Shown here piece after piece: positions 16,671 to 47,869 of a stretch of 64,000 nucleotides of DNA; position 1 is the first letter of the stretch, and each line of letters opens with the position of its first letter. The DNA comes from Cliona cf. orientalis (lineage: Eukaryota; Porifera; Demospongiae; Clionaida; Clionaidae). The translations under genes and the position numbers were made by a program. Below the pieces are notes generated by a model, which was given only the letters and a program-made list of their open reading frames with translations, did no database searches and was not told the DNA's origin. The stretch spans positions 18,871,775-18,935,774 of the forward strand of contig OZ005689.1 of assembly GCA_963930775.1 (NCBI GenBank), in the 5' to 3' direction.

Positions 16671-16671
16671 T

Positions 16672-22294: not shown

Positions 22295-22359
22295 CTGACT
22301 TAATGTGTAGTTGATTTGTACTCAAACTTTTGTAAGACACTAGGTCTTGGCCGGCGGTA

Positions 22360-27271: not shown

Positions 27272-27470
27272 CCCGTATAAAACGTTCGGCGATCAATGTC
27301 AAAAAATCGCTCAAGAGCACAAACAGAGTTGCGCATCGCGATTTCAAGCGATCGTTCGCTGAAAATCGACCAGGATCGCCGATAATTGGAATGGCACGAT
27401 CGATCGCGATCATCAGCGAATCCCAAGGTCGTACGAGAATGCTAAAAAACGCAACTGAGACACCTCCACT
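27272..27470. promoter_or_regulatory. Left subterminal repeat region of the BEN transposon
   Basis: CGGCGATC, GCGATCGTTCGCT, GGATCGCCGAT and ACGATCGATCGCGATC occur within about 150 bp. Inverted counterparts (AGCGAACGATCGCG, CATCGGCGAT, GCACGATCGG) occur at 47695-47800. Clustered subterminal words are the usual binding sites of transposon-encoded proteins in CACTA elements; here that role is inferred. Confidence 0.5.
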
Positions 27471-27957
27471 ATATAGCCGAGACCCCCCCCCTACTATGCT
27501 GAGACTCACCATGTACACTGTCCCGGTGTTGTTGTTCGCCGGTCCCCTAACACTAAATAACCGCGCACCCATCCCGAGAGCACCTAGTTGAATTTTATCC
27601 TGACGAGACATACACTCGGGGGCAGCGCGCTAGCTAGACTTTTACAGCCGCCTGTTTTCATAGTATAGCCTAGTAGCCAGTGGAATACAAGGTTTACCGG
27701 ATTAATCAACAGCACACTATATGATCTAGCCTTGTACCCACGCCTGGGTACGCGGCTAACTATGATCGTACTCACAACTTCAATTTCCTCGACGTTCGTC
27801 TTCGTCTGCTATGGCCATAGTTACCAAGACTTGCCTGTCAAACCACACCCACTAGGCTACTGACATAAAATTAATGCAATGAACCCTGCCCTTCAATTCT
27901 GCTGCAGTATACAGATCTATCAAAGTTGCACTTACAAAAATAAAATTAAAATAATAC
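27471..27957. other. 3'-flanking region of the Tnp2-like gene, no gene
   Basis: Non-coding part of the BEN transposon between its left subterminal region and the gypsy insertion; a C run at about 27485-27492. Nothing else recognised. Confidence 0.4.
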
Positions 27958-28257
27958 TGTAACGTTCTCGTATAGTTACCAGTTATAAACCTAGTTGCTT
28001 GCTGCACGCGACGTATACTTCACTTAGCACACAGAACATATATTATTGAGACTCAAAGATAGAATAGTTATGCATGCACAATACACTATAATATGTGATA
28101 CAGAAGAACAAAAGAACCGGCTGCGCAGGGCGCTAGAAACAAAGGGACCGTATGCGCTAAGGCGCATGGCCCGAATGACAATGATTACATCACTAATAAT
28201 TACACCAGGAAGTAAATATAACTCAGGATGTAAACATGGATAATTGCAAACACTACA
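27958..28257 (-). repeat. Gypsy 3' LTR
   Basis: 300 bp; plus-strand reading starts TGTAACGTTCTCGTATAGTT and ends GCAAACACTACA. Confidence 0.95.
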
Positions 28258-28333
28258 ATCCTCCCTCCTAAGTTTACAAATAAGGGATCCACACAACTCA
28301 GTAACTAATCACAAAAATCAACTAAAAATAAGT

Positions 28334-31300
28334 TCAGTTCTCACTGTGGTATCCATACCGTTCTGGCGGTTTTCTGGAACGACCTGAACGACGAGGACCA
28401 GTGTTGTCCTCTGAAGCAGGATCAGTTGGATCCTCTGAAGCAGGATCAGTGGGATCCTCAGGAGGGGGACCAGGCAAGTTATCAGGTTCTGTATTCTCCG
28501 GAGGATCGGTCGATTCAGGTTCCTGTTCACTTGTAGTCTCATCAGGTGAAGGCGATTCCTGCGAGTCTTGAGTAACTGAGTATTCAAAATCGTCATTACT
28601 TCGTGCTCCATTTTCAGTAGCATTCTCGCTCTCTACTCGAGACCTTAATTGATCTGTGTGACGGCGAACACTTCGACCATCTCTCAACAAAACTGTGTGC
28701 AGAGTAGAGCCTTGAATATTCGTCACTTTGCCTGGCAACCACACTTCTCCAGGTCCATAGTTACGAGCATATACCGCTTCCCCAACAACAAAGTTTCTCT
28801 GTCTAGCATGACTATCTTGTCCACGTTTCTGTCGTTCTTGACTCAAGCGGACCTTTCTCGCCAGGTCTGGACGTAACGAATCCAAGTGTGTTCGAACTTT
28901 CCTTCCAAACATTAATTCTGAGGGAGACACTCCTGTGCTACTCTGTGGAGTGACTCTATAAGTGAACAGGAAACGAGCTACTTTTGTGTCAAGTGTGCCT
29001 TCCTTTAGCTTCCGCATTCCAGACTTAAAAGTCTGAACGGCCCTCTCCGCTATACCGTTCGAGGCTGGATGGTACGGTGGAGTCTTAAGGTGCTTAATAC
29101 CATTTTTCTTTAGAAAAATTTCGAATTCTTCACTGGTAAAGTTAGTGGCATTATCTGATACAATAACATCTGGCAAACCCAACGTGGCAAACGACTTTCT
29201 TAACAAGGAAATTGTAGTTGCTGATGTGGATGAACTGGTCATATGCACCTCTAACCATTTAGAGTGAGCATCAATCATTAGTAGAAACATTTTTCCTTGA
29301 TATGGGCCACAATAATCAATATGCACACGTGACCAGGGTTTGTTTGGCCACGCCCAAGGGTGTAATGGAAGTACTGGAGGTGTCTTACGATTAATTTGAC
29401 AAGTTCCACATGTTTTTACACACTCTTCCAGCTCCTGATCTACCCCAGGCCACCACATGTATCCCCTTGCCAGACGTTTCATTCTGTCTATTCCGGGGTG
29501 TCCCTGGTGCAGCATTTTCTTAACCTGCCCTCTTCCCTTACTGGGGATCACCACCCGACTACCCCATACAATGCAACCATCTTCTACTGTTAAGTCGTAC
29601 CTTTTCCTATAATATGGATGCAGCTCCTTCTCTCTCGGCTGTTCATCCGGCCATCCTCTTTGAATCCAGTATTTCACCTTTGACAGATGCGTGTCCTGCT
29701 CTGTCCAATTCCTGATCTGTGTGCTCGTCACAGGTGAGGTGTTGAGATATTCCATAAGGTGTACAACCTCTGCTGGGGCTGGAGGATCCTTGTGCCCCTT
29801 GTGCAATGGCAGCCTACTCAAGGCGTCGGCGTTTGCGTTTTCTTCGCCTTTCTTGTATCGGATAGTGTAGCTGTAGGCTCCTAAGGTGATAGCCCATCGC
29901 TGAATTCGTCCCGCGGCCAGAACTGTGGTAGCTTTTGTTTCGCTGAAGATGTGAACCAACGGTTTATGATCTGTTTTTAGCTCGAAATGTCTGCCATACA
30001 GGTACTGGTGATACTTGCGGACCCCGAATATCAAAGCTAGCGCCTCCTTGTCTAGCTGCGAATATTTTCGTTCAACTGTTGTGAGGGTGCGTGAGGCAAA
30101 TGCGATCGGTCTTTCGTCTCCTGTAGGCATTCGGTGCGACAAGACTGCGCCCACCCCATAGGGGGACGCATCACAGGCGAGGATAAGTGGCAACTTCTGA
30201 TCGTAGTGCACCAATACTTGAGGTGATCTCAACAGGTCTTTGACGGCTGCAAAAGCCTCTCTTTGTCTCCGGCCCCAAGTCCATTTCGTGGTTTTCTGCA
30301 GCAGCTCGTAGAGTGGAGACAGGGTCGTGGCTAGATCGGGGAGGAATTTCCCGTAATAATTAACAAGCCCTAAAAAGGACCTCAGCTCTCCCACATTCTT
30401 TGGTGCTGGTGCTTTGAGGATAGCTTCCACCTTTGCTTTTGATGTGTGTAAACCGTCTGCACTGATGGTGTGGCCTATGTAGTCGACAGATGGCAGGAAA
30501 AATTCACACTTTGCTCTTTTCAATTTCATCCCCGCCTTCTGGAGTCTGCGTAGTACTTCCGCCAGATGGTCCAGGTGCTCTGCCGATGTATGACCTGTGA
30601 CCAAGATGTCGTCGATATAAACACAGACACCCGGTATCCCCTGTAGGAGATTGTCCATTATGCGTTGGAATATGGACGGAGCCGATGCGATGCCGAACGG
30701 TAGTCTGTTATATCGAAACAGACCTTTGTGCGTACTGATTGTTGCGAATTGACGGGAATCCTCGTCCAGCTCGATTTGCTGGTATGCGTGCGATAAATCG
30801 AGTTTTGTGAAACATTTGCCGCCGGATAGTGACGTGAACAAGTCGTCGATTTTGGGGATAGGATACTTGTCCAATTTTGCGACACGATTTACCGTAACTT
30901 TGTAATCCCCGCAAATGCGGACGCTTCCATCGGGTTTTGTTACTGGGACTATCGGCGCAGCCCAGTCCGAGAACTGTATAGGCTCGATTATGCCTTGCTC
31001 TTGGAGTCTTTCGAGCTCCTTCTCGACTTTCTGTTGCATGGCGAATGGAACGGATCGCGCTTTGAAAAATCTCGGCATAGCGTCTGGGTCGACGTGGATC
31101 TTTGCTGTAGTGCCTTTGACTTTTCCGAGCTTCTCTTCGAACACTTCGCTGTGGGTCTCCAGCAATTCTTGCAGTGTGAGAGCCATTTTCACCTGGAAAA
31201 TACCGTTCCAATCCAGTTTGAGGGTAGACAACCAGTTGCGACCAAGCAAAGAGGGGCCTGAACCACGAGTGATAATGAGAGGTAGGGTAACAGTTTGACC

Positions 31301-31765
31301 GTTGTGTTGAACTTCCACATCTGCTGTTCCCACCACCTGAATGGCCTCCCCTGTGTACGTTGACAGTCTAATATTTGCTGGTCGTATTACAGCTCCTCTC
31401 TGCAAAAGTGTCTGAAACGACTCTTCCCCCATCAGTGACACCGATGCGCCTGTGTCAACTTCCATCCTCACTGCTTGTTTGTTGAGCGTAACTTCCACAG
31501 TGAGTGGTTTGGATGATCCACAGCTAACTCGGTATAACATGTACTCGTTGGGACTTTCGTCTCCCGTGCGTTCTTCTTCGACTCGATGAGCTCGTGCGTC
31601 TTGTTCCGACTCGCGTTTCGACTGCCTTTCTCTTTCGACACGCTGTGGCAATGTGTCCTTTTTTGTGGCAGTAGTGACATTCATAGCTCTTGAATTTACA
31701 AGTGGCAGGTGAGTGCTTCCCACCACAGCGGTAGCAATCGTTCTGTGTTCCTCTTGATGCTCCAC
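28334..31765 (-). CDS. Gypsy pol polyprotein, 1143 codons
   Basis: Domains: aspartic protease MEVDTGASVSL (Asp about 104), reverse transcriptase with KLDLSHAYQQ and VYIDDILV (YIDD about 383-386), RNase H (LACDASPYG, LDKEALAL, LKTDHKPL), integrase with HHCC zinc finger (HPGIDRM...CGTCQ), DDE core (VHIDYCGP, VSDNATNF, GIAERAVQ) and a C-terminal basic/acidic tail with repeated EDPTDPAS. The frame overlaps gag by about 240 bp and is in the +1 frame relative to it, so expression would need a programmed +1 shift (as in Ty3) or another mechanism; the first Met at 31765 need not be used. All catalytic residues that I can check are present. Confidence 0.92.
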   Translation of the reverse strand: MEHQEEHRTIATAVVGSTHLPLVNSRAMNVTTATKKDTLPQRVERERQSKRESEQDARAHRVEEERTGDESPNEYMLYRVSCGSSKPLTVEVTLNKQAVRMEVDTGASVSLMGEESFQTLLQRGAVIRPANIRLSTYTGEAIQVVGTADVEVQHNGQTVTLPLIITRGSGPSLLGRNWLSTLKLDWNGIFQVKMALTLQELLETHSEVFEEKLGKVKGTTAKIHVDPDAMPRFFKARSVPFAMQQKVEKELERLQEQGIIEPIQFSDWAAPIVPVTKPDGSVRICGDYKVTVNRVAKLDKYPIPKIDDLFTSLSGGKCFTKLDLSHAYQQIELDEDSRQFATISTHKGLFRYNRLPFGIASAPSIFQRIMDNLLQGIPGVCVYIDDILVTGHTSAEHLDHLAEVLRRLQKAGMKLKRAKCEFFLPSVDYIGHTISADGLHTSKAKVEAILKAPAPKNVGELRSFLGLVNYYGKFLPDLATTLSPLYELLQKTTKWTWGRRQREAFAAVKDLLRSPQVLVHYDQKLPLILACDASPYGVGAVLSHRMPTGDERPIAFASRTLTTVERKYSQLDKEALALIFGVRKYHQYLYGRHFELKTDHKPLVHIFSETKATTVLAAGRIQRWAITLGAYSYTIRYKKGEENANADALSRLPLHKGHKDPPAPAEVVHLMEYLNTSPVTSTQIRNWTEQDTHLSKVKYWIQRGWPDEQPREKELHPYYRKRYDLTVEDGCIVWGSRVVIPSKGRGQVKKMLHQGHPGIDRMKRLARGYMWWPGVDQELEECVKTCGTCQINRKTPPVLPLHPWAWPNKPWSRVHIDYCGPYQGKMFLLMIDAHSKWLEVHMTSSSTSATTISLLRKSFATLGLPDVIVSDNATNFTSEEFEIFLKKNGIKHLKTPPYHPASNGIAERAVQTFKSGMRKLKEGTLDTKVARFLFTYRVTPQSSTGVSPSELMFGRKVRTHLDSLRPDLARKVRLSQERQKRGQDSHARQRNFVVGEAVYARNYGPGEVWLPGKVTNIQGSTLHTVLLRDGRSVRRHTDQLRSRVESENATENGARSNDDFEYSVTQDSQESPSPDETTSEQEPESTDPPENTEPDNLPGPPPEDPTDPASEDPTDPASEDNTGPRRSGRSRKPPERYGYHSEN

Positions 31766-32477
31766 CTCGCATCTTTGTGGGCTTCGGGGTGACTTTCAGT
31801 ACTTCGGCTTTCTCTTGATGCGCTGGGGTTATTTCACTACTGGTCTCGTGCAAACGTTTTGAGTCCTTCTCAGCGGTCTCTGAGGCTAGAGCCATGTCCC
31901 TGGCAGTTGCATACGTCAGTGTTGATTCCTGGAGATAACGACGCTGTACACGTTCATCTGATGTTCCACACACAAGCCGATCCCTGAGCATGTCGTTTAG
32001 ACTCGAGCCGTAGTCGCAGTGCTCTGCGATCTTACGCAAGGCTGCTATGTATTCTGCAACGGATTCTCCCGGCTTCTGTTTGCGTGTGTTGAACTCGTAA
32101 CGCTTGATGGTGACGGAGGGCTTTGGGTTGAAGTGCGTCTTCACTTTCTGGACCAAGTCAGCGAATGAGAGATCACTTGGCTTCCCAGGCAACGATAGGG
32201 TCTTGATTAGACGATACGTAGAAGCTCCCACACAATTCAGTAGGATCGCTCGTTGCTTTACTGGGTCTTTAATATCATTTGCGATGAAATAGTTCTCTAG
32301 ACGCTCAGCATAGTCTTCCCACTCTTCCCTCGTCCCATCAAATGGCGAGGCCACTCCGTGTAATGCGATAGGTGCAGCAGCAGTCACCATAGCTCCAGAA
32401 CCAGACCCAGAGCCAGAGCCCGAAGAAGAGCTAGAGCTTGTCGCCGAGGGGTCAGCTGGTGGATCATCGTCAGACAT
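31524..32477 (-). CDS. Gypsy gag protein
   Basis: Starts at ATG 32477 (the frame is open further to 32489 but lacks an upstream ATG). A Ser/Gly-rich N-terminus is followed by a retrotransposon gag core (WEDYAERLENYF, FADLVQKVKTHF, ETVAEYIAALRKI-like) and two zinc knuckles, CYRCGGKHSPATC and CHYCHKKGHIATAC, near the C-terminus. It forms the particle and binds RNA. About 318 codons, normal for the family. It overlaps pol at its 3' end. Confidence 0.9.
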   Translation of the reverse strand: MSDDDPPADPSATSSSSSSGSGSGSGSGAMVTAAAPIALHGVASPFDGTREEWEDYAERLENYFIANDIKDPVKQRAILLNCVGASTYRLIKTLSLPGKPSDLSFADLVQKVKTHFNPKPSVTIKRYEFNTRKQKPGESVAEYIAALRKIAEHCDYGSSLNDMLRDRLVCGTSDERVQRRYLQESTLTYATARDMALASETAEKDSKRLHETSSEITPAHQEKAEVLKVTPKPTKMRGGASRGTQNDCYRCGGKHSPATCKFKSYECHYCHKKGHIATACRKRKAVETRVGTRRTSSSSRRRTHGRRKSQRVHVIPS

Positions 32478-32489
32478 CCTCGTCACCAA
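32472..32489 (-). promoter_or_regulatory. Gypsy primer-binding site (tRNA not identified)
   Basis: Directly after the 5' LTR (minus strand) comes T-TGGTGACGAGGATGTCTG. A TGG start next to the LTR is typical of a PBS. The first seven bases match tRNA-Trp-type PBSs, but the rest does not, so the primer is unsettled. The gag ATG lies within this segment. Confidence 0.55.
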
Positions 32490-32789
32490 TGTAACGTTCT
32501 CGTATAGTTACCAGTTATAAACCTAGTTGCTTGCTGCACGCGACGTATACTTCACTTAGCACACAGAACATATATTATTGAGACTCAAAGATAGAATAGT
32601 TATGCATGCACAATACACTATAATATGTGATACAGAAGAACAAAAGAACCGGCTGCGCAGGGCGCTAGAAACAAAGGGACCGTATGCGCTAAGGCGCATG
32701 GCCCGAATGACAATGATTACATCACTAATAATTACACCAGGAAGTAAATATAACTCAGGATGTAAACATGGATAATTGCAAACACTACA
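32490..32789 (-). repeat. Gypsy 5' LTR
   Basis: 300-bp LTR on the right side, 5' for the minus-strand element; no mismatch to the other LTR was noticed. Confidence 0.95.
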
Positions 32790-34084
32790 AATACTAATCA
32801 TCATATTTATAATTAGGTACAACAGCAACATACTGAATATCATCAACAATAAAAACACATTTTCTTTTGATTTGTGATACTGGTATACATTGTACAGGGC
32901 CCTCCTTTACAACCACTAGACCGTAATCTGTGGGAATCTTGTCCAGGCAATCATTTGTTAAATGAAAATGCTGCTGTAAACTTTCAATTTCATCATCTGA
33001 CACTAGCGTTGTTAACATAGCGTAGGTCTTCCTATTAGCGTGTACAAAATACCGAATTTTTCCAAATTTCTGCACTCCACACATGGAGTATTGCACAGTA
33101 AAGCTATTACGCAGTCTGACACGTGTGTATGATTCAGAATAAAGAATAGTCTGAACAGGTCTGTCGACAAAGATACGTTTGTACACAAGCAGCTTTTCTC
33201 TGTGACTCGGCAGGCTACATCGAATCATTTCTTGTACTTCCAGAACTGATGGTGAGATGTGGCAACTTTGTCCAAGTGCAACACAGTCCTCAAGGTCAAC
33301 GTTGAAATGAGACCTAAAGAATAGATTGTGTGTTCATGAGAGCATGGCAACATCCAGTTATAAGGTGGAGGTAATTGATTAATTTTTGGAACAGAAAAGG
33401 TGTTATAATACTATGATCAGTTACATAACAATATGAAACTGCACATATAATACCTTTTCTTTCGATTCAGTCTTTCCATCAAAAGCTGCACCCGATCTCT
33501 CCCACTACAGCAGCGGAGAGCTATAATGTTTGGTAGAGACTGCGTCACCAAATGATTGAATGCCAGCTGTATACCAATCAAAAAAAACTTCATAATTTTC
33601 ATATAAACAGATCTTATGTACTGTTTGACTCATATTTCTGCTGCCATGGAATAGACTCTTGATGTGATGGTTCATAGACTCAAACGAAAAGCATGAGTAA
33701 GCCCACACCGGACCCCAATTCTTAACACACTGACAAATATGCCGCAGAAGGTGAACTTTCATAGTGTTAGAACTTGATCCTAAAAATTAATAAGCAACAT
33801 AATATAATGTCTAGCATTCAACCACAATGATTACTGTATTAACACACCATAGAGAGTCGATATTTCTGAATAAAATTTCTCAAAAAATAGTTGAGCATTA
33901 GAAAGATCGGTAGGTGAGATAGCATCAGACATCACGATGTGGACTCCAGCAACAAGATAACAAAAGTGACTAAAATATGGTTCCTGCAATATCCCATGCA
34001 GCACTGGTAATGAGAAATAGAGCAGCCAGGAACGCAGTTGAGAGCCTAAAGATGAGAAAATATCCTCTAAACCTAATCTTTGTA

Positions 34085-34102
34085 CATACTAATACTAGAC
34101 AT

Positions 34103-34135
<33 letters not shown>

Positions 34136-34290
34136 CATGCACACGAATGCACCCCAATTACTGTCAGATAACTATTTTGTTGTTAGTGTGACCTCTGTTC
34201 ATCATTGGCCTACTTTATGATGACCCACCCCCTTCCCATAGCCGGCAAATTGCCTATAAAACTTTGGTTGCTAGGCAACTAGCGACAAAC
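34085..34290. repeat. AC microsatellite plus hairpin repeat copy 1
   Basis: An AC tract (34101-34132) followed by AATTACTGTCAGATAACTAT... through TTTGGTTGCTAGGCAACTAG, a reversed copy of the repeats at 37772-37945 and 46253-46442. It lies in an intron of the transposase gene. Confidence 0.65.
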
Positions 34291-34343
34291 TGTGATACAC
34301 ACACTACATGAACACACACAGTATTCTCCCTTGCAAATATAAG

Positions 34344-34484
34344 CCATGTCGGACCAACACGCCTTCAGTACAGAATTTGATGCGGGAGTAGAGATAATCC
34401 ATGTGCTTTATTGTGGTCACAGGCTCCACCCAAACTATGTCAATCTGTCATGCCTTGAATTTAGCCTGGGGAGAACACCGACAC
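34344..34484. mobile_element. CAGTGTTCTCCC MITE, degraded copy
   Basis: Matches the body of the 167-bp MITE at 43796-43962 (GCATGTCGG, TTCAGTACAGA, CAGGCTCCACCCAAACTATG, GGGGAGAACAC). The left terminus is lost. Located in an intron of the transposase gene, next to another AC tract. Confidence 0.65.
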
Positions 34485-36714
34485 ACACACACACACATGC
34501 ACACACACACACACTACACAATATATACCTTTCCAATGAGCATGATCAATTAAGGATCTAGGTGTTCTTGAAATTATGTCAGGAACACGTATCTTAAGTA
34601 GTCTGCTGTCACACTCTTTGATCTGGTAAGAAATTCAATGTAGAGCGTATACATGTATGTGTACGTACACAAAAGGAATGCACACTTCTTTACCTTATTT
34701 GCAATGCTATGAGGTTTTCTTTTGTGGCTATCACCAAACCAGTAATTCAACAGGTTTTCAGTGATTCCAAGAAATAGGATATGAAGGTCATCGATGGCAA
34801 ATCCTTTGGATAGATCAAACGGTTTATGCACACAAATATAGATGCTCCCTTAATTCCCTTCACCTAACAAGAATGAAACAATGATGAAACAATTTACATG
34901 TACATACATGTACCAACGTCAAGCTTACAGCAGATGATGAGGATAATGTATCTCGAGCATTTTGCATCATAGATCCATGAGACCGGGGCAGGCAGTTGAT
35001 CTGGTAGGGCCAATCTCGATGAAGATGGCATGAAGCTCGCGGCACACCTTCATCTTCACAATGAGCACAAGCAAATTTACCATTGTAACTTTTCATATTG
35101 ATCATCTTGGCTTGTGCTGGCAAATCTACACAAGCCAACAACAAAATTGCACGACACACACGTCTTGATTCCCTGGGGTGAATTCACACTTATACCTGCA
35201 AAATAACGATTTCCATACATTAGTTTTATTACTTTTGATTAATTAATCTGTGCTGTGAAACATCCTAGCATTAAGCTGCTTAGAGTGCAAATTTAGAACT
35301 AAAGGCCAATATCTAACCCTTGGGGCGTGCGCAAGGGGTACGGTAGTCGTTTTGTGTGTGTGTGTGTTTGTGTGTCTGTTACCACGCCAGCTGCTAGCTA
35401 CATGCACACAGTCTACTAAATTTACCAAGCTAGTGAGTAGCAGTCACAAGAAATAATTATTTACCTTGTGAATACAGGGTGTTGATTGATGCTAACATGT
35501 GAAAGAAAAACGTAGTCATTGTTGGCTTTTCCGAGTCAAACCATAAACCACCCAACAGCATATTACGCTTGGAGAATCTAGAAGAAAATTAGTGGTTAAA
35601 TACAATGAACAATAGTACTGTATGGCGGGGGATTCTTCATGGGGTGCTATTTTTCGCAATTGGTAGTGAGTGCACATAGTGTCCCTTGTCTGAGTTAACC
35701 ACATATACTGGTTGCTGTCATTAAATTAATTCTGAGGGCTTTCCTTGACTTCCCATGAAAATTAGCACCCCTAAAATTACCCCCCATAATTATGGTAATG
35801 TATCTGTGCATACCTTTGAGAGGGTGGTAACTCGTTAATTACTAGCCAAATAGGCCACAAGGAACACTTTGAAGATCTAAAGATGCTGACACCATCAGTA
35901 TTTACCAGCAGTGACACATTGGCAGGATTGCTCAAGAATCGACGATGTTTTCTATACTCCTCACCATCCCAAATATCTGATACCAAATTAGCAGTAGATC
36001 TAGATCTGTGTGTGAATCTCTGCTGTAATAGATTCCATATAGCAGGGTCTAAATGAAAAAAATTAATAAAGTTATGGATAGGGACAATACAAGATATTCA
36101 TCTTAATTACCTTCCAGTTTCTTCTTCAACTGCAAATCAATAGGTACAGCCACAAAGGTTCGAATTGTGGACTGGCAACCATTCTCACACCGATCACTCT
36201 CAGCTTCAATGAGTCGGTGACACGTATCACAATATCTGTGAACCTCCGTAGTGATTTCTAAACGTTGTGCAAAGTATTTTTCGAGGGTATGTAGTGATGT
36301 TGCTGCTTTTGAACTCCGAGGTAAGTGAGTTGACAACAGCCGGATCAGCTCATCTATTGCCATTTTTGACAATCCATGTTTGAGAGCAAATTGGTAAACG
36401 AGCAAGTAGCTGTCTAGGACCGAGACATCTGCGCCATCATAAAGTGGAGCTTTCAGTTCATCGTCTTCATCAAGTTCATGTGATACAGATGATGCAGCAC
36501 TAAAGCTCTCACTCTCAGAACTATCACCATCAGAACTATCGTAGTCGTAGCTGCCAGTTTCAGAACCTTCACTAGAAGAGCTGGTGTACCCGTCTTCTGA
36601 CGTGGACTCTTTGCTACACCCATCAGGAGAAGAAGTGGATCCCATCGATTCTTCAACGAGGCTGTCCTCGTCGGAGTGGCTCGAGTCAAACTCAGAAGAT
36701 GTTTCGCCATCCAT

Positions 36715-37692: not shown

Positions 37693-37733
<41 letters not shown>

Positions 37734-40700
37734 CGCGCGCGTGTGTGTGTGTATATGTGCGTGTGTGTTTGTTGGTAGTTGCCTAGCAACCAAAGTTTAA
37801 TAGGCAATTTGCCGGCTATGGGAAGGGGATGGGTCATCATAAAGTAGGCCAATGATGAACAGAGGTCAACTACCAACAAAATAGTTATCTGCCAGTAATT
37901 GGGGTGCATTCGACCATGCATCTCGTGCACGCCAGATAACTATTATGTGTGTGTGTATGTGTGCACGCGGGGAGGGGGGTGGGGGTGGGGTGGTTGCGTG
38001 TGTCAATGCTAGTGCCTATATGAAAGATTAGTATTTTTATTTTAAAGCCTGTAAGCCAGGGCTAATGTCAAGTAATTAGATGGTGGCCTTAAACGAGCAT
38101 GTGTTGAATAAATATTCCGTACGTACGCGTTACTTTCGCGAATCGCGATCAATGAGGGCGGAGTATAAAAGGGGGGTGGTCAGGCCGGAAGTTCTTGACC
38201 ATGCGCATAAATATGGCGGATGAATTTCAAATTCAAAACTAGTCCAGAATGCCCGCGATTCTCTGTCTTTCGAGGCTACACAACACGCAAGCGCAACAGG
38301 ATCGGACACGCTCTGTTAGCTTAGACACGTGTTTACTCCAGCCACATGCACACAAACCAGAAGTCCTTCAACCGTCCTGTCACGCTGCCGCTAGTATGGC
38401 CTCATCAGCTGACAAGAGAGTGATTACAGTAAGATATTCATAGCAGTACTATCATATAACCAAGAACAATAATATAAACATAACACAAAACTACTAAAAC
38501 TAGGTGAAAGTAGAATATACACACACTCCTCCTCAAGTTTTTGTATCGCGTGTGAACCGTATGGTCCATGAAAGCCAGCTGCCTGCTTTGACGGTTCAAC
38601 TGAGATGGGTACGTCTCGAGGAGGATGAGCCACCATCCACTGACAATGAGACCCAGCAGCAGGGTAGCACAGGTAGCTACATGTACAAACTCAGTAAAAA
38701 TATACTCAAATATATGACACTTTAGGTGTTACCTTTCCGAGTCACCCCGAAGGCTATCGGCAGTCAAGCAGTTGTCCGATTCTTCGTGGCAGGAATAATT
38801 GCCCCAACTGTTTGTGTTCCCCTTGCGTCATTGCGTTGCCCCCTGACTTCCTGCGCGGCGCCTGCGGTCCCCATCCGGCGAATGATGAGAAGCGGTACAG
38901 ATTGTACAAAGCGTTTTGGAAGTTGCTCAACACTCTCGGCGTCTTCCAGGATGAGGAGTACCTCCTGAGAAAGGAGCGGAGAACTCTAAGGGCAGACAAG
39001 AGGGAAATAATTCCGAAATGTGTCATTACAGTAAGCAAGGATTGCACTGTATCAAATAGGTAATATAATGTTTCTGTCTATAGGAAATCAGAAGAAGATA
39101 TCCTAGCCATGATGGCGAATATAAAGATTATATGTCTACTTTCGAAGCTGAAAGTGCACTTGATTAAATTTAAGCAAGAGATATAATTATGGTAGTCACC
39201 GGGGAAACTGCTGGGGGAGACACACAATAAGAATATCATAACACTGTAATGGGGGGGACACACAATACGAATATCATAGCACGGGGGGGGGGGGGGGGGG
39301 GGGGGGCAAAATACGAATATCATAATAATATAGCACAGGGGGGGGAATACAAATATCATAGCACTATCCTGTGTGGATGAGATCAGCAATACTGTCCTGT
39401 GGGCAAGGAGGTCGGTATGGACTCGGTGAGAAAGTGAGGTCAGTGCACATACATATTACATAAACCTAAACAGCAACAAAAGTATATGCAAGTGGAGCCA
39501 GTAACACCATATCAGTCAGTGACAAAATATTATACATACATGTAGTCTTGTGAAATTGCTTAGTCGTCATCCGATTCTGCCTCGGATAAAAGTGTGCCAT
39601 CGTCAACTTCTCCATCTAGGTCACCAGTCTCCTCATCTTCAGTCTCCTCATCTTCAATCTCTCTAAAGATAAAAAACAATTTTCACATAATATATAAAGT
39701 ATAGGATGATGTACGATACATACCTGATGTCGGGTTTGTTGTCATCAACATATGCTGTCCACACAAGCTCAACAAACTTGAACGTCTTCTCCACTAGGAC
39801 CTTCATAGGTGTACGCCTGTCTGGTCGTCGAAGGTCTTTCACCTTGTGTACACTGGTATGAGTGCGATTCACATTCTCATTCTGCATAATTTACAATGAT
39901 ATAGATATAAAGATACAAACAGCATAAATCATGCATCTGACCCAGTCCATCACTGCGAGGTTCATTCTCATATTGAACACCCTGGTGGAAAAGTGAATCC
40001 GCTTCGGTAAGTATGTGAGCAGCTGGTGGTTGAAACTCTCCACCCAGTAAGTGTCGCGACACTGTATACATGTAATATAAGCTAAATATTGCAAGAGGAC
40101 TGACTGTGAAAACCATACATACCCGACAGAAGTCATCGGCATAGCGGTACACGTAGGTGTCCTTCAAACCTTTGAGCAGTGCCTGACATGCTTGAGGGTT
40201 AGTGAGCTCCAGCCTACTGGGAATGTATCCAGGATCATGACATGACGAACTTGGATGGCAGTCAGAGTGGATTCCCTGTAAGTAAATATATATACGTGAA
40301 CAGCTTCCATATTGTATGACGTAGGACGAACGACTGCTAATACCATATAATGGTTGGGTATGTTGAGAATGAGCTTGCGGAGAGCATCTGAACATCCACC
40401 ACAGTTTTTCATGGCCCAGTAGAGATGAATTTTAATACTTCTTCCTGAAAAAGTACACTACATTATCCACATAACTACACAGTACATACAAGTGGCATAC
40501 GTTTATCCGTAAGCTCAGTAAACCATGTCACATCACGATCTCTTACTCTGCCCTTGGTGATTTTGGCGAGCTCCTTGGCAACATTCTTGGTTCCTACACA
40601 CAATGGTGTAGTCGCATCAATTCAAATATAAAGTATACCATCCATTTCGTACCATGCCATGTGTCAAAGGAGTTGAGGAGCTTGAGATCTTGCTTCACAT

Positions 40701-43700
40701 AGCGTCCAACAGCAAGCTGCATATCATGTGCAATCTCAACGATTTTCAAACCTGGATGGACATACACAAATTTTATACACATACACACAACACATTATAG
40801 TATACATCACATTGTATATAACCTACCTCGAGCAATGACTTGGGGCACAACTACCTTAGTGCATTCAAGTTCACGAGTTTGGGCCACATGATGTTCACTT
40901 CGCGAAATGGTAGAAATGCCAACAATCTTCATGGTACTGTATGTACATAGGGTACAATAGAAACAATTAGTATTGTCAATGAAAAGCATTGTCACCTTCC
41001 AGAAAGGCAAGGCACAGTGGCGTGGTAGGCATTAGCAGTTGAGTCATGTCTGGCGTCGGTGATGACCCACTGTGAACATAGAACATCACTCATTTGTATA
41101 CATGTACATGTACGTTTATACAAACCTCTCCCTTTGTTACATAGTCTGGGAGGGTCTCCACCTCTTCCACTGCTTTCTTCATGAATTGCTCGGCCAAACG
41201 ATCCACTATGCCAATGTACCCACGGCGATTGTATACTGAAATGTTATTGAATTCTTGAAATAAAGCAGTGTATATGCATGACAATTACCTTGTCTGATGT
41301 AGCCATGTCCAACACTGCCCATGCCTGAAAACTTGGAAAAGTTGATGTACTGAGTAGGCAACACACCAGCGCAAGTGAAACCATGAACCAACCTACAACA
41401 ACACAAACGGTAATATAACCACTCTACTCGACACTAAAATTTACTTCTGATTAGCTAAGTAGAGCCCACTGAGTACTCTTGAACTTGACCATGTCCTCCT
41501 TTGCCGATGGCAACGGCGGCAAGAGAACAGCACACGCAACACATGACCTTTCTATGGGACAAGAAGATCATGACAAACAGCTTGCTATACTTGACGCTAC
41601 AATATTGTAACCTGTTTGATAGACTCCACAGCCCATGGTTTTATTGTCAGCCCACAGGGACATGGGGAGCAGAGTCCTTCAACCAGGTCAGAAAAACAGC
41701 ACTCTTCGGTCACAAACAATGCTTGGTCTTCCTGGTGCTCATCACTTACATACACTCCTATGTGATGCATACACACTTGAACATAGCTATCATATATAGT
41801 CTGCACATACTCAGCCTTACCACTGTTTCGTAGAAAGCTCCTTGTTTCCACGCGCTCATTACCCGGGGAATTGTCCTGTGGTCTCGCATTCCGTTCTACC
41901 GCATCCAACAAGGCGCATAACACACCGTGATTGTCTAGAGTGGGGGCTCCTACGGGTTGTAGGAGCTTGCAAACGGCCTCAAATCGACGCTCAAAGGCTT
42001 CCTTCTCCCGGTAAGTCGAGAAAGTCGCTTGTAGAGTGAAGCGATGACGCTTCCGGGAGGAATTAGAACTCGACATAATATCACAGATCAGCTTCGAAAC
42101 AAATAATATGCGAACACGTGCAAAAAGTTCTATTTGGAGCGCTCTTGCTTTTATTCGCGTTTTTGACAGTTGTTAGCGTGTGTCTATGGGTGTAAAAGTG
42201 CGAGAACGGTCACTTGGCAGAAGGCAGCCATTTTGTAAGTTCAAAATTTTAGCGAATGACATTTTTTGGCCTGACCACGCCCCTTTTATACGGCGCATGC
42301 TCGTTTAAGTAGGCTTGCATGAACTTGCCCAGGCCACTGTTTGTGATATATAGGATAATGAAATTCTTGTGTGCATTCAAGGCCACAACCATAGATACAA
42401 CTTAGATAGCCATGTGTCACATTACTGTACTTTGTGTGTACACAGGCCTCTACAAAGATTTGAAGCTATTGCAAAAGAGAAAGGAAAAAGAACTGGAATT
42501 GGAGGATGATCAAGGTTCAGTCATGGATGACGAAACAAAGGGTGCGCTAGTGTGTGTTACCTGTTACTTAAATGGCTAGCCTTGCACCACCCAATATCTA
42601 TACACACAAGCAGCTCAATTTATGCTTATTTGCATACCATGCTTGATTTTAGCGCCTCATCAACATAGGGGACTTTTGCTTGCTAAACTACATGCGGCCT
42701 GCATACTTTCATTGAATGGTGTGTGTGTGTACTGCTTTCCATTGTCAGTGTCATAGGTTTCCAACATTACATTTGAATGCTAATTAATGTAGGAAAGGAA
42801 AACGAAAATACTAATGAAAGTATTGTTGAAACAAAGTCAAAAACGAAGAAAAGAAGTGAGAAAACTCCAAGAATAAGCCCCAAGAAGAAACCTGCAACTA
42901 AGAAGGTGGTGAAAGCTAGAAGGAAGCTGAATTTGGCTGCCGAAGGTATGCTGAACCTGTCACTGTCATGGATACCCACCTCCTTGCATGGGATCCAGTC
43001 CCCAGTACTAGACATAAGGCCCAGCCCAGGTGTCTGTTTGCAAAACCACCAGTGCTGTGTGATAACCTCAGTGGCATGTAATTGAATGGTGGTACTATAA
43101 TGTTGTACTTCAAAAAAAGAAAAAGAACCAGACCACTATATACAGTGGTCCCTCCTTTGAGAGACCCCTCTAGTGAGAGACCACCTCTTATTAAGAACCA
43201 TAAAGTGTATGCACAAAACCACTCTACATATAAACAGCCCTCTGGTCAAAGACCACCTCTAGAACCCAACCAAAGACCACCAATTATGTGGAAATTAAAG
43301 ACCATCACTGATCTCAACTAGAGCTCTGTAGATCAAAATTACCCCACGTGCACATTGCATAATCTGTAGATCTACTTTGGAATGTTGCCATAATAATGCG
43401 CCCCTGGAAAGAGAAAAGTTCTCATATTGGAAGAGGAGTGATTCATCGGACTAAAAATATCCCTGTGACTGACTGGAGGTTGAAAAGTAGTAAACACTCA
43501 TTTCTTTCTTATGAATATGGGTACCAAGCAACTAATTTCCACATAAATTATATACGGCATAATACAACCCACTCTTGCAAAGCTCCACCTATTGCTCCAC
43601 CCTCCTCTGGTGGAAGACCACCTCGTTTGGGAGACCATTTTTATTTGGATTCAAGTGCGGTCTCTCAAAAGAGGGACCACTGTACATATATTAGCCTTGG

Positions 43701-46700
43701 TGTGGTTTGTAGAGCAAAACTGAGTGGGCTGAAATCCACAGTACTACAGCTCTCATTGGCATGTCCCCAGACAGATTGGAAATTGTATTACCCTCCAGTG
43801 TTCTCCCTAGCATACCTAAGGCATGTCGGCTCAACAAGCCTTCAGTACAGAGTTTCCTTTGGTGTGGGAATAGGAATTATCCATGTGCTTTGATGTGGCC
43901 ACAGGCTCCACCCAAACTATGCCCTCCCATCATGCCTTGAATTTAGCTTGGGGAGAACACTGCCCTCTATTGCTGACTAAGTAGTTACCTGGTGGATGTA
44001 GTTGGCTAGAAAAACTTAAAATTCACCTATACAATGCAGTAAAATTATTAATTGGAGTAAAATTATTAATTGGGCTTGCCATAAGTTTGAGACACGTGTA
44101 CAATGTTCTGCATTGTGTGTGTACATGTATACATAGATGGTGAGGGATCTCCACCAAAAAAGCAGAAATCGGCTAAATCATCCTCTGTAAGTACAAGTAA
44201 CAATTGTACGTAGTTTGTTAGTGGCTAAACATAATAAAGTGGTAGATTCTTCTAGTGAGTATCATATCTATTAATGCAGAGTTCTCCCTAGTATATATAC
44301 CTAAGGCATGTCAGCCCAACAACCATTAATTTTACTACAAAATTCCCTTTGATGTGGGGAATGGGATAACCCAAAAGTTTAATTTGTAGTGGTCACAGAC
44401 TCCACCCACACCCCACACTTGGCCCTCTTATCATGGAACACTGCTGAGTGTATGTACATGTATTGTTTTATTTGGTTTTGTGTATGTACTTGTGGGTACT
44501 TTTACTGCAGAAAGATAAGGCCAAAGATTCTGAGGCGTCGAGGATGACAGCACTACTCGTGGACGATAACTTGAGCTTCTCTGACCCTGAGCTTATTGAC
44601 GATGGTGGTGATGACCTACTTGACCTTCCTATTACTAGTTCTGAGGAGCTTCCCTCTACAGCATCATCTATATCTCCAACATTATCTTTGTCTGGCTCGG
44701 GGGCTAATTCATTGCCCTGCGTAACACCCAAACTTTCTTGGACATCTCAAACCTTTCCCAGTCCTTTTGAAACATCAAGAATAGGAAGTAACAAATGGGG
44801 AGTTCCATGGGGGTCTAGAGGTGGACGAGAGTTTGGTGAAAATGGATATAGGTCCGGATATGGTGGATATGATGCTGGAGACAATTATGGTGCTGGTGCT
44901 GGGGCTGACCACTATTGTCCTAGAAGTGGTTTTGGTACTGGAGCTGGCTGTGGTAGTTATGGACCTTACAGTGCTGAACCCTATTGTGGCAGGCTTGGAG
45001 AATTTGGATCTGCAAATGGTGTGGCTGTAAGTATCGTACACATGTAGATAGCTGCTCAGTGTGTACCCAGTTGCTAATTGCATAGCTACCAGTGTTCTCC
45101 CCAGAATACTTGAGGGATAGGGGCCCCCCATCCCTTCAGTGCTGATTTATCTTTGAAGTGGGATTGGGGTGGAGCCAAAATCTTTGATGTGGACACTAGC
45201 TCCACCAAAAATAATGCCTTCTGCTACGTCTTCAATTTTGGCTGGGGAGAATACTGGCTACATGCATAAGGGTGAAGCCTCCCCCCCCCCCCCCCCCCCC
45301 ACAAAAAAAGCGCCGTTTGAGGTGAAACTATACTATTATAGGATTGTTGAATTTAGATGAAATTCTATTAGTTTTGTAGCCAAAAATGTACGACAAAATT
45401 GAGATGATATTGCTAATTTTAATGCTGCACAGCAGCACAATAGGATTTCAAAACTAATTTTGCATGCAATTATTGCAAGCCCCCCTCTCACATCTGTGCC
45501 CTTGTATTAATTGTAGCTTGTGTAATTCCTCCAGGAGGAGATGATTCGGCTAAAGTCATTTGTGTTCGAGGGTATCCATGGCATCACAGATCAACTGAAG
45601 ACACTAAAGGAGGAGATTAAGAGATCCAAATCCAAGAAGGTACATGTATATAATATGTTGAAAGATTTTAAGTGGCCATCCATACTGCTATTGAGCCCAA
45701 GTGCATGCATAGATGTGCATATAGCCCTTATTTGCAGGTCGTAGGTCACATTACATCATTGACTTTGATATAAGCCACCCCCACGCTATATCAAGAACCC
45801 CTGAAAAGAGGACACTTTGATAATCCAGCCATCAGCACCCAAGGTTTAGATTAGTGGGGCTCCACTGTGTGAATTGTCTATCTTGCGCTTGAACATACAT
45901 AATCTGTAGCTCTCGTGATTATCGACAAAGGCTAAATAATGCCTATGGTCAACAATTTTTAATGATATGTTGTTATTATGTGTAATTGTACAATTATGTG
46001 TAGAGTCGCCTCAAGAGGGAATTGTCGTCTGAAAGTTTGGGGGAGTCTTCTGCAAGTGCAAGTGGGCGAGCAACACCTGTTTACAGCTCGAGTAAGCCTC
46101 CTGTATGATATAACCTGCATTTGGTTTTCACTTGGGATAAAATACACTATGGTATCATTTTACCTCACATGGAAGGAGTGAGAAGTCTTCCGAGGGTATA
46201 TAGTGAAGCTGGTTTTTCATATTTAATTATTCATCCAACTGCTACTAATATTGTTTGTTGGTAGTTGCCTAGCAACCAAAGTTTTTGTAGGCAATTTTCC
46301 GGCTATGGGAAGGGGTTGGGTCATCATAAAGTAGGCCAATGATGAACAGAGGTCAACTACCAACAAAATAGTTATCTGCCAGTAATTGGGGTGCATTCAA
46401 CCATGCATCTCATGCACCCCAAATACTGGCAGATAACTATTATGTGTGTGTGTGCGCCACTGTGTACGTGTGTGTGCAGTGTGTATGTGTGTGTGTCTAC
46501 TGCTATAACCACATTAAAAGGTTTAATAACTACTGTTGGGAGTGGGCAGGTATACATGACCCCACACACCTCTAAATCCTGTGAATTTTATGATGGATTA
46601 TTATACATTTTTACATAATATACATATATAGGTGGTGCTATTTTGGGAGATCCAAAAGGTCAGCATATGGTGATACCTGGCTTTTCACAGAGGGATGTGA

Positions 46701-47113
46701 GAGCAGCTGAGGCTGTATCGTGTGATGCTGATAAGTTGGCGCTAAATCTTCTGGACATATTCTTTACTAAGGATGTGCTGTCAACATCACTGGTCACTAA
46801 GTGGGATGGGCGTGAGATGTTGGACCAGGATACCATCGAAGGAATCCGCTGTGAGTGCTTCTTAATTAGTGTCGTGTGCACGTTTAGGCACTAGTGTACT
46901 TTATCAATATGTGAGTGTGTGTGTGTGTGTGTACAAACGGTGACTGGAAGCCATGATGAATTTGACTTCACTAATATTTCTGCAGTGCACGTCAGTTACC
47001 TGTATCCAGACCCGAATGACAAAGCCCGATGGAAAGCTATTATTAAGAAGATAAACAGTAAATGCAGAAATATAAAGAACAGAAACAAGAGTGCCAGGAG
47101 TGGATCACTGTAG
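37016..47113 (+). CDS. BEN-domain protein, 10 exons, 528 aa, intact
   Basis: Exons: 37016-37076, 37129-37299, 42446-42541, 42793-42945, 44137-44186, 44511-45026, 45535-45639, 46004-46091, 46632-46850, 46986-47113. All junctions are GT-AG and all phases match, giving 1587 coding bases with no stop. The N-terminus is basic, then a WIDEPDAIDVVPAKKI segment; residues about 120-170 are Lys-rich; exon 6 has an acidic patch and a Gly/Tyr-rich stretch (GYGGYDAGDNYGAGAG). Exons 9-10 form a BEN domain (VIPGFSQRDVRAAEAV, LALNLLDIFFTKDVLS, MLDQDTIEGIR, YPDPNDKARWKAIIKKINSKCR). BEN domains bind DNA or chromatin. It lies inside the transposon, head-to-head with the transposase; the likely role is binding the element's ends, or a captured or exapted factor. 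ATTAAA at 47204 may serve polyadenylation. Intron 2 holds a Kolobok element. Confidence 0.8.
37621..37771 (+). repeat. GT microsatellite
   Basis: Interrupted (GT)n with GTATAATGTATAAT spacers, in intron 2 of the BEN gene. Confidence 0.9.
37772..37945. repeat. Hairpin repeat copy 2
   Basis: TTGGTAGTTGCCTAGCAACC... with TCAACTACCAACAAAATAG downstream and ATAGTTATCTGCCAGTAATT pairing with CCAGATAACTATTATG. Two overlapping hairpins as in copy 3 (46253-46442). Confidence 0.65.
38249..39168 (+). CDS. Kolobok accessory protein, cysteine-rich, P2X7-C-terminus-like
   Basis: Approximate exons 38249-38428, 38504-38671, 38728-39030 and 39085-39168. The conserved part reads CPNCLCSPCVI, LPPDFLRGACGPH, NDEKRYRLYKAFWKLLNTL, REIIPKCVI and then EIRRRYPS after the last intron. 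The Cys cluster followed by IP-x-CV...IRxxYP resembles the short cytoplasmic domain of P2X7-like proteins, also found in many invertebrate transposon-linked proteins. Function in the element is unknown; DNA or metal binding is a guess. Exon 1 and its ATG are uncertain, and the junction around 38671-38728 was not proven by phase. Confidence 0.45.
39262..39346. repeat. Poly-G tract and short tandem copies
   Basis: Copies of a GACACACAATACGAATATCATA-like word alternate with G runs (39245-39345). Low-complexity spacer between the two convergent Kolobok genes. Confidence 0.6.
39560..42076 (-). CDS. Kolobok-type DDE transposase, multi-exon
   Basis: Starts at ATG 42076 (MSSSNSSRKRHRFTLQ) and reaches a stop at 39560 after an acidic tail (EIEDEETEDEETGDLDGE). 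Exons on the minus strand near 42076-41830, 41400-41300, 41235-41115, 41070-41000, 40930-40835, 40755-40660, 40590-40505, 40440-40345, 40275-40130, 40065-39940, 39890-39725 and 39664-39560 carry, in order, DAVERNARPQ, WVITDARHDST, KIVGISTISRSEHH, LKIVEIAHDMQ, LLNSFDTWHGTKN, CRDTYWVESFNHQLLTY, PKRIHF and NENVNRTHTS. DARHDS, D-x-WHG-x-K and W-E-SFN match the DDE framework of Kolobok transposases. No disabling change was noticed, but exon borders were not all phase-checked. Confidence 0.6.
43143..43682. mobile_element. MITE, pogo-like (CAGTGGTCCCTC TIR)
   Basis: Left terminus CAGTGGTCCCTCCTTTGAGA, right terminus its complement; TA at 43141-43142 and 43683-43684. CAGT... termini with TA target suit pogo/Tigger. 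The interior repeats GAGACCACCTC words. It lies in intron 4 of the BEN gene. Confidence 0.8.
43796..43962. mobile_element. MITE, CAGTGTTCTCCC family, complete copy
   Basis: 167 bp, CAGTGTTCTCCC...GGGGAGAACACTG, flanked by CCCTC (43791-43795 and 43963-43967). BEN gene intron 4. Confidence 0.75.
44277..44443. mobile_element. MITE, CAGTGTTCTCCC family, diverged copy
   Basis: CAGAGTTCTCCC...GGAACACTG of the same 167-bp length, more diverged inside; target duplication is not visible. BEN gene intron 5. Confidence 0.65.
45090..45256. mobile_element. MITE, CAGTGTTCTCCC family, complete copy
   Basis: 167 bp, CAGTGTTCTCCCC...GGGGAGAATACTG, flanked by GCTAC (45085-45089 and 45257-45261). BEN gene intron 6. 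A poly-C run follows at 45282-45300. Confidence 0.75.
46253..46442. repeat. Hairpin repeat copy 3
   Basis: TTTGTTGGTAGTTGCC pairs with TCAACTACCAACAAA, and ATAGTTATCTGCCAGTAATT pairs with TACTGGCAGATAACTAT around a GGGGTGCAT/ATGCACCCC core. Lies in intron 8 of the BEN gene, followed by GT-rich DNA. Confidence 0.7.
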
Positions 47114-47869
47114 ACTCACACAACGAATGCTCTCTCTCCTTTAGCTATATACCTAGACTCCATTTAATTGTACGTGTATTCACCTCCTTTTCATGCTGTT
47201 CTAATTAAAGGATAATGTAAATTTGAAGGACAACGTTGCATGCAGGCCTCTGGGGTATAATAATACCTCTGGCCTGGGTAGGCATGTCTGAATTCTGTGT
47301 GGCTTATATGTGATTATCATGTGATACTGCACCATAGCTAGCTCGCTATTGCTGCTCGTAAGAGCAGTTGATGCGTGCGTGGTGGGGTCTGGGAACGAGA
47401 CTAACTGGGAGGCAGTGCTGTAATATGAAATTTCAACATGATGTATCCGGCTGAAATGGGAGCAGTAGTTAAATACTTCAAAGCACACACCAGGTTAGAG
47501 TTATAGGCTTACGAAGAATGCCACGGTTATAACGCCGGGTGCCATAGTCTGTACGTAGCACGCTAGCTATTATAAAACGCCCCGCTCTGACTGCACAAGA
47601 AATGTGGATACATGAACGTCGTTCAAAGCTAGGGTGCCGGCCTAGCTTCAAGGGACGGTGTTGGTCGGACCCAGACCGCTAGCACTCCCAATCGCAATAG
47701 GCGGACTGGCACGATCGGTCGGTAATGGACAGTGGCGAACAACAACGATCATCGGCGATTGACAGCGACGCGTTCGCGAACAAAAGCGAACGATCGCGAG
47801 TTGGTACAGCGCAATTGTTCGCAATCTTGCGCAGTTGAAGGCACCAAATCGCCTTTCCATTTACACGGG
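47114..47869. promoter_or_regulatory. Right subterminal region of the BEN transposon
   Basis: 3' flank of the BEN gene, with a reversed fragment of the GTCTCGT MITE family near 47385-47402. From about 47690 to 47840 GCACGATCGG, CATCGGCGAT, AGCGAACGATCGCG and similar words cluster, mirroring the left end. Terminates in ACACGGG at 47869. Confidence 0.5.

Follow-up and report, generated by a model that had tools for sequence, protein, structure and literature searches.

A CACTA-type transposon of the sponge Cliona cf. orientalis with a divergent BEN-domain gene, a candidate TnpA-like partner

Within a 64,000-nucleotide stretch of the Cliona cf. orientalis genome (contig OZ005689.1, positions 18,871,775 to 18,935,774; hereafter the window, in which all plain coordinates are given), a transposase gene lies back to back with a gene whose product ends in a BEN domain, which raises the question of whether the second gene belongs to the transposon and, if so, which role it plays there. 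We identify the element as an animal CACTA (TRC) transposon of the cut-and-paste type, whose own two genes diverge from a shared middle, and we give a probability of roughly 0.6 to the overall reading of a two-part system in which the BEN protein is an end-binding partner similar to TnpA.

The insertion and its two genes

The whole element occupies 27272..47869 (20,598 bp, no strand assigned) and has inverted ends CCCGTATAAA and CCCGTGTAAA and a duplicated TC target, the two copies of which lie at 27270-27271 and 47870-47871. The left junction, at 27272, reads TTC followed by CCCGTATAAA, and the right one, at 47869, TTTACACGGG followed by TCC, in agreement with the CCCGT-type inverted ends and 2-bp TC duplication reported in the initial annotation. 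When the element and one TC are excised and the in-window sequence is joined, the LINE frame is restored, translating as KKEQHQQRSKFRPNTIAQ*AFATDPG against KKEINQKRAKFHPYTVAQEAFASDPG of the second LINE copy in the window, and its single stop (27221-27223) belongs to the LINE itself. Bases 1-320 of the joined flanks are matched at 94-95% by three LINE copies elsewhere in the genome, each 10-12 bases shorter than the query, and one of the three, C10, runs without gaps across the joint in the 81 bp read, being identical over 33 bp to the left and 20 bp to the right. This uninterrupted LINE copy shows the empty site of the insertion, base for base, and together with the restored frame it confirms that the 20.6-kb element was inserted in a LINE frame. 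Once two nested elements are subtracted, about 11.4 kb of the 20.6 kb remain. One is a Ty3/gypsy-type LTR retrotransposon (27958..32789, minus strand) inserted at the stop codon of the transposase gene, with LTRs 100% identical over 301 bp aligned and an AATAC target duplication; the other is a DNA transposon (38070..42400, ends approximate, no strand assigned) in the second intron of the BEN gene. Both stand outside the two-gene system.

The transposase gene (32794..36714, minus strand) comprises 10 exons, 36714-36111, 36048-35814, 35577-35465, 35195-34929, 34863-34694, 34622-34529, 34045-33848, 33779-33622, 33566-33454 and 33313-32794, and its spliced product matches the Pfam family Transposase_21 (Tnp2) with 50.1 bits, above the cut-off of 28.6 and in line with the type of protein first proposed. 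Relatives carrying PF02992 are found in Branchiostoma, Porites, Littorina, Mytilus and Alosa. Two breaks interrupt the frame, in exons 35195-34929 and 34863-34694, a defect that escaped the first reading of the locus, and because of them the window copy is probably dead.

On the plus strand, the BEN gene (37016..47113) also comprises 10 exons, 37016-37076, 37129-37299, 42446-42541, 42793-42945, 44137-44186, 44511-45026, 45535-45639, 46004-46091, 46632-46850 and 46986-47113, joined by AG acceptors and GT donors into a 528-aa frame that is open throughout, with no stop. The last two (46632..47113, plus strand) encode the BEN domain (PF10523, residues 448-515), the sole domain matched in a Pfam scan, and the score of 34.1 bits against a cut-off of 23.2 bears out the annotated divergent 10-exon BEN protein. 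In a set of 5.8 billion proteins, no match to the BEN protein at E 1e-3 was obtained among the 8000 candidates scored. A PDB search with the domain returned BANP, which binds CGCG and is its closest solved relative (1.2e-7), then BEND3 (0.063), and no others at E up to 1. The window protein has SKCR at the position of BANP S313-K314-C-R316, in which S313 and R316 contact bases, and all 9 of the transposon BEN domains aligned by eye retain the arginine equivalent to R316, in the DNA-contacting helix 5. Among the 10 transposon BEN loci scanned, the Pfam cut-off was exceeded in five (the window, B, L053, C13 and C11); D (19.7), F (21.8) and H (19.7) fell within 3.5 bits of it, E scored 12.9 and I gave no match.

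Pairing of transposase and BEN genes across the genome

Searches with the element ends yielded no second full-length DNA copy of the window element, and DNA searches for further copies, which skip very common words, returned the window itself and short repeats only. Relatives were examined instead. Two of these relatives, F (C1:3924096-3930336) and G (C10:9052637-9058844), about 6.2 kb in size and each with a transposase and a BEN match, align from inverted end to inverted end over 47 bp at 97.9% and 6,188 bp at 99.4%. Since these close copies are nearly identical end to end, yet have different flanks and different 2-bp duplications (TA and AG), the pair of genes moves as one unit, and did so recently in F and G. 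Another relative, B (C1:35885625-35897381), has CCCGT ends and a TA duplication, its left end having been picked among three CCCGT sites in the first 9 kb partly by the TA flank, with the CpG block measured afterwards; its transposase exons show 32-61% identity and its BEN-domain exons 48-49%. Between B and its close copy C, the BEN-domain exons differ by two nonsynonymous changes in 277 sites within surrounding DNA that is 95.7% identical, and BEN exons thus show apparent signs of constraint. In all four copies with both ends found (the window copy, B, F and G) the termini are CCCGT and the duplications 2 bp long (TC, TA, TA and AG, respectively). At three of the 11 BEN loci read (C13, I and C11) a CCCGT end was not found within 1.5-2.1 kb; the left ends of D and E were not found, nor was a transposase beside their BEN genes in the 15-16 kb read upstream.

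Genome-wide, a BEN-like exon lies within 10 kb of 28 of the 92 detected transposase loci, and random placement, in which some contig sizes were guessed, gave a mean of 1.5 pairs and a maximum of 8 in 1000 trials. Confinement of the pair to the window copy is therefore rejected. All 28 pairs are divergent (26 of 26 in an earlier count), although they are not independent, since several are almost identical to one another (F/G, for example, or the C6/C11/C1:24262653 set), and three of them rest on BEN matches with E of 0.04-0.24 (C1:31127806, C3:9992507 and C1:3417550). The BEN queries H and I were chosen for their adjoining transposases, and the I-type exon, for which Pfam gives no match, is linked to the BEN of C11 at E 0.0057. 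With the best 55 of 422 candidates scored, the counts are lower bounds. When loci are classed by one match row each, exon by exon, a BEN lies within 10 kb of 23 of the 31 transposases at least 30% identical (window included) and beside 0 of the 16 below 30%, a class in which a BEN list built from the window clade could miss some. Co-occurrence, which the initial annotation had proposed to test in full-length copies, holds within 10 kb for most close transposases, always in divergent order there; for six of the 31, search matches gave no BEN within 30 kb (C1:18282389, C1:30246708, C1:36771478, C1:19892217, C6:5996097 and C10:2213611), and the refuting condition of transposase copies lacking the BEN gene is answered only in part. 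Conversely, for 42 of 68 BEN clusters a transposase was not detected within 10 kb, and two same-strand pairs appear at distances of 18 to 24 kb. The divergent arrangement has nevertheless been kept in many copies. Based on the recently moved F/G unit and the 28 divergent neighbours, the BEN gene belongs to the transposon, as first claimed and now strongly supported, and the two genes are almost certainly the element's own unit.

CpG-dense ends and the proposed role of the BEN protein

The left subterminal block (27272..27471) holds 22 CpG at an observed/expected ratio of 1.92 and the right one (47670..47869) 24 CpG at 1.59, neither with an assigned strand and both with the repeats ATCGCGA, GCGAAC and CGATCG. 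In the outer 200 bp of the window copy, B and F the ratio is 1.43-2.07 against 0.45-0.58 in the interior, and at the right ends of C, D, E and H it is 1.55-1.99 against 0.15-0.42 just outside. The subterminal repeats differ by family, and repeated 6-mers (pairs statistic) in the ends of the window copy, B and F exceed those of 1000 out of 1000 dinucleotide shuffles; the commonest single k-mer at the ends (equalled by 10-227 of 1000 shuffles) and k-mer sharing between both ends of B (14-354 of 1000) are weaker signals. Nevertheless, the ends are not distinguished by CpG, because the stretch between the genes (36715..37015, no strand assigned; 25 CpG, ratio 1.52 over 301 bp), presumed to be a two-way promoter, has about the same CpG density in the window (1.80 in the 200-bp bin at 36672), and in B and F its ratio is likewise elevated (0.97-1.26).

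From the CpG-dense, repeated ends and the BANP-like BEN domain it may fairly be inferred that the BEN protein takes the role of TnpA at the ends. We hypothesize that, at both ends, it would bind the CpG motifs repeated within the outer 200 bp and would mark or pair these ends for the transposase, like TnpA in plant En/Spm, in which subterminal DNA is repeated; the CpG-dense stretch that separates the genes would probably be a further site of its action. Protein and motif would be matched in each family, with the CpG-reading arginine fixed and the residue reading the neighbouring base varying with the family's repeat. Binding to the ends is likely, and for a requirement of the BEN protein in transposition we see even odds.

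The same CpG-dense stretch may suggest that the BEN protein is rather the element's own regulator, which, by binding unmethylated CpG at the ends and in the promoter that separates the genes, would keep the element expressed or unsilenced, or else repress it. Such a reading, possible though doubtful, agrees with the preference of BANP and BEND3 for unmethylated CpG (in the available part of PMC11472053), with the TET/JBP genes carried by fungal transposons (in that of PMC12730594) and with the action of plant TnpA on a methylated promoter as well (in that of PMC1636069), but the blocks of repeated CpG motifs at both ends, about 4.6 and 6.5 kb away with nested inserts subtracted, would be needless for a pure promoter factor. 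The regulatory and end-binding roles are compatible with each other.

BEN proteins can also bind CpG islands, according to the available part of PMC11472053, and could steer integration by tethering the complex to CpG-rich targets; insertions were instead observed in a LINE frame and at TA or AG sites, CpG is scarce in the 200 bp just beyond four right ends (0.15-0.42), and this role is very unlikely. A host gene captured as a passenger, or an element that landed beside one, would have an obvious source in the 25 other PF10523 BEN loci of the genome, one of which (C1:36769677) has a transposase on the same strand within 10 kb. This origin is more improbable still, given that divergent order is kept in every pair over very divergent families, that the recently moved F/G unit holds both genes and that BEN exons appear constrained. 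In particular, a host BEN gene merely adjoining the insertion is rejected, both genes lying inside the ends and within the F/G unit.

Relation to known systems

A BEN partner for a CACTA-type transposase was not found in the literature searched, among the matches listed: no paper was found on the BEN domain together with CACTA and EnSpm, and the available text of the matches listed for the BEN domain and DNA transposons gave no BEN gene in a transposon. The recurring back-to-back pair points to a two-part mobility system. The fold of its candidate partner is known, BANP structures have been solved for comparison, and the partner recurs beside transposases in one genome, which provides proteins and end motifs in matched sets for binding and excision tests. 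The pair also suggests that animal BEN genes may have a mobile source. More speculatively, and with rather low confidence, a whole clade of animal CACTA elements may work with a BEN protein of its own, in which the helix that reads DNA has diverged along with the CpG motifs at the ends of its element, and some BANP/BEND3-like host BEN transcription factors may be domesticated descendants, or relatives, of such transposon proteins.

The termini do lack the canonical CACTA, being CCCGT in the four copies with both ends found, but this is not new, since the available text of PMC1636069 already describes animal CACTA (TRC) elements with CCC termini and duplications of 2 bp. There, SmTRC1 of Schistosoma mansoni resembles the present element in Transposase_21, CCC termini and a 2-bp target duplication, and its additional proteins are the products of alternative splicing, with no conservation reported by the authors; a TNPA-like DNA-binding role was in 2006 only proposed for its unconserved second protein, and a BEN gene is not mentioned in that text. 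Plant En/Spm, in the same source, likewise joins a transposase to a DNA-binding partner, but TnpA and TnpD are spliced from one transcription unit, whereas here two genes diverge, and its ends are CACTA, whereas those of the window element are CCCGT and the partner has a BEN domain. Fungal transposons that carry TET/JBP, EnSpm and others, also combine, in the available part of PMC12730594, a CACTA-type element and a chromatin-related second gene; that gene encodes an enzyme and not a BEN DNA-binding protein, and no word in the main text begins with BEN. BANP and BEND3 share the BEN domain, and the base-contacting serine and arginine of BANP are kept in the window protein; they are host chromatin factors, whereas the BEN gene of the window sits between transposon ends.

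Structure of the window element

The CACTA-like element of the window, hereafter W, spans 27272 to 47869 and has the ends CCCGTATAAA and CCCGTGTAAA, flanked on both sides by TC. Deletion of W together with one TC restores the LINE reading frame, which then aligns with the second LINE copy of the window. In a search of the 216.8-Mb host assembly (G000), where the window lies on contig C1, the joined flanks align over bases 1 to 320 with three LINE copies at other sites (94-95% identity), and matches to the window's own flank halves stop at the joint. The copy on contig C10, the sole one read at the joint (81 bp), carries a single TC and is gap-free. W is an insertion that duplicated 2 bp of its target, and the restored frame and uninterrupted LINE copies bear out its initial annotation as such, with inverted ends and a TC duplication in a LINE frame. 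The two nested elements proposed within it were likewise found: a Ty3/gypsy-type element at the stop codon of the transposase, flanked by an AATAC duplication and with LTRs identical to each other, and a DNA transposon with two opposed genes (38070-42400) in intron 2 of the BEN gene. The minus-strand gene of the latter includes the stretch TDARHDSTANAYHATVPC and its plus strand a Cys-rich ORF (CPNCLCSPCV...GPHPANDEKRY); two pieces scanned with Pfam gave no match above the cut-off. A short high-copy repeat occurs three times in the introns of W (34145-34290, 37767-37912 and 46253-46398) and at no fewer than 40 places in the genome (the best 40 of 2838 candidates).

Pfam searches of the spliced products recovered both domains assigned to the divergent gene pair. 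The plus-strand gene (37016 to 47113) has ten exons encoding a stop-free protein of 528 aa, with a BEN domain at residues 448-515 (34.1 bits), and the ten-exon minus-strand gene (36714 to 32794) matches Transposase_21 (50.1 bits) and DUF1258 (52.4 bits). Exons four and five of the transposase gene each carry a frame break, so that W is probably inactive if these are not assembly errors. Elsewhere in the window, inspection by eye identified an apparently recent BEL/Pao-like LTR retrotransposon at 16498-22532, whose termini match directly over 173 bp at 100% and which has an open frame of 1837 aa. The open frame at 54083-54574 looks by eye like that of a SET-domain histone methyltransferase.

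Related copies and the pairing of transposase and BEN genes

When used as a DNA query against the genome, the left end of W had no other match, and the right stretch (47100-47869) matched at full length only in the window, the remaining matches being short repeats. Diverged relatives were found with the W BEN protein. Element B (11.76 kb, within C1:35882000-35899999), bounded by TA|CCCGTCAAAAAG and CTTCTTCACGGG|TA, reproduces the layout of W, with a minus-strand transposase relative (exons 32-61% identical) and a plus-strand BEN relative. Element C (C1:18588000-18606999) has its BEN half and right end in common with B at 93-97%, its left half being missing at a 200-N gap. Element F (C1:3924096-3930336; 6,241 bp) contains transposase and BEN matches, inverted ends agreeing at 19/20 positions and a TA duplication; G, on C10, matches it end to end (99.4% in the main block of 6,188 bp) within different flanks and an AG duplication, and accordingly the two genes moved jointly. 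Element H holds a transposase and a weakly similar BEN, with a CCCGTG end 876 bp past the BEN match. Loci D and E retain BEN and a CCCGTG right end; the search for their left ends was negative, as was that for a transposase in the 15-16 kb upstream. Of the 11 BEN loci with sufficient sequence, a count that omits L053, which has too little, eight (W and B to H) have a CCCGT end beyond BEN; none was present past BEN in the sequence read for C13, I and C11. As expected at the outset, further copies with such ends exist: B, F and G have both genes, CCCGT-type ends and 2-bp duplications. The DNA searches found no second copy of W itself.

Transposase matches clustered into at least 92 loci and BEN matches into 68, to which five rows were later added. 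Among the matches listed, 28 pairs lie within 10 kb (26 before the addition), and 28/28 (earlier 26/26) place BEN on the opposite strand and upstream of the transposase; out to 30 kb, before the addition, 30 pairs were divergent and 2 same-strand. In 1000 trials with the 68 BEN loci placed at random on their own contigs, the number of pairs averaged 1.5 and never exceeded 8. When 47 loci among the matches listed were classed by identity to the W transposase, a BEN neighbor was found within 10 kb for 23/31 and within 30 kb for 25/31 of those at 30% or above (window included), and for 0/16 of those below 30%; loci detected by the Pfam model only had BEN within 10 kb in 5/45 cases. The divergent arrangement and the joint movement of F and G agree with the predicted co-occurrence; for six of the 31 close transposases no BEN was detected within 30 kb. 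Judging from these sequences, BEN pairing looks like an inherited trait of one clade, one branch of which is rich in introns (the window, B, F and H); in the other, which is intron-poor and includes C11:3111639 (BEN exon 24.6 bits), element ends were not found. A PF10523 BEN exon at C1:36769677 and a close transposase relative 1.1 kb away (C1:36770992) are on the same strand, possibly as an independent pairing. Contig C1 (37.5 Mb) accounts for a large part of the transposase and BEN matches listed, in raw numbers rather than relative to length.

CpG blocks and the putative role of the BEN protein

CpG observed/expected in the outer 200 bp is 1.92 and 1.59 in W, 1.90 and 2.07 in B, and 2.07 and 1.43 in F, with interiors at 0.45, 0.48 and 0.58, respectively; the right ends of C, D, E and H reach 1.55-1.99, and the sequence just outside 0.15-0.42. 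In 1000 dinucleotide-preserving shuffles each, the repeated 6-mer pairs of the ends were reached by none in W, B or F, and the 7-mer pairs by 0, 0 and 6, respectively. Overlap of the two ends in 7- and 8-mers is strong in W (1 and 0 per 1000) and F (0 and 0) and weak in B (39 and 14), and the count of the commonest single k-mer is less marked (10-227). The motifs are family-specific: GCGAAC and ATCGCGA in W, ACGAACG in B, and CGCGCG (13 left, 1 right) with CCGCG-type words in F.

The W BEN domain matches the PDB structures of BANP (1.2e-7) and BEND3 (0.063). S313 and R316 in helix 5 of BANP touch the bases of CGCG DNA (PMC10206803), and unmethylated CGCG is selected by oligomerised BANP and hardly by the lone BEN domain (PMC11472053), a difference that explains the disagreement of the two papers on methylation. 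W has SKCR at the S313-R316 place. An alignment by eye of nine transposon BENs shows an invariant Arg, with S, D, N, T, D, M, A, A and Q at the position of S313. This fits transposon BENs that, in these nine sequences, would all read CpG and differ in the neighboring base, as the end motifs do. B and C differ in their BEN-domain exons by 2 nonsynonymous changes in 277 sites and 2 synonymous in 77, within DNA 95.7% identical, which in such small numbers is a hint of constraint. Among other BEN loci, L009 has a long SLTLGQQPQQ-type repeat in its frame, and L010-L012 are three separate loci with one identical score, which suggests recent duplication.

The gene content, the ends, the joint movement of F and G and the conserved divergent pairing are established, and we take W as a two-gene transposon of the TRC type, the animal CACTA group. 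We hypothesize, with a probability of roughly 0.6, that its BEN protein binds the CpG repeats of either end and assists the transposase, a part played by TnpA in En/Spm; a part in synapsis and a requirement for transposition would follow the same model. The main alternative, less probable, is that BEN serves promoter or anti-silencing control of the element. The stretch between the genes is also CpG-dense (best 200-bp bin 1.80 in W; 0.97-1.26 in B and F), which leans somewhat to such control, and this may be a second role of BEN alongside the binding of the ends.

Comparison with known elements

The ends without CACTA were confirmed but are not new, because CCC ends with 2-bp duplications were already described in 2006 for animal Transposase_21 elements (PMC1636069). 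Among the open-access papers listed, none was seen to describe a BEN gene inside a transposon, and Repbase might hold some unremarked. A TNPA-like role was also proposed in PMC1636069, for a second protein that is unconserved; in the clade of W the candidate partner is a BEN protein in a conserved divergent pairing with the transposase.
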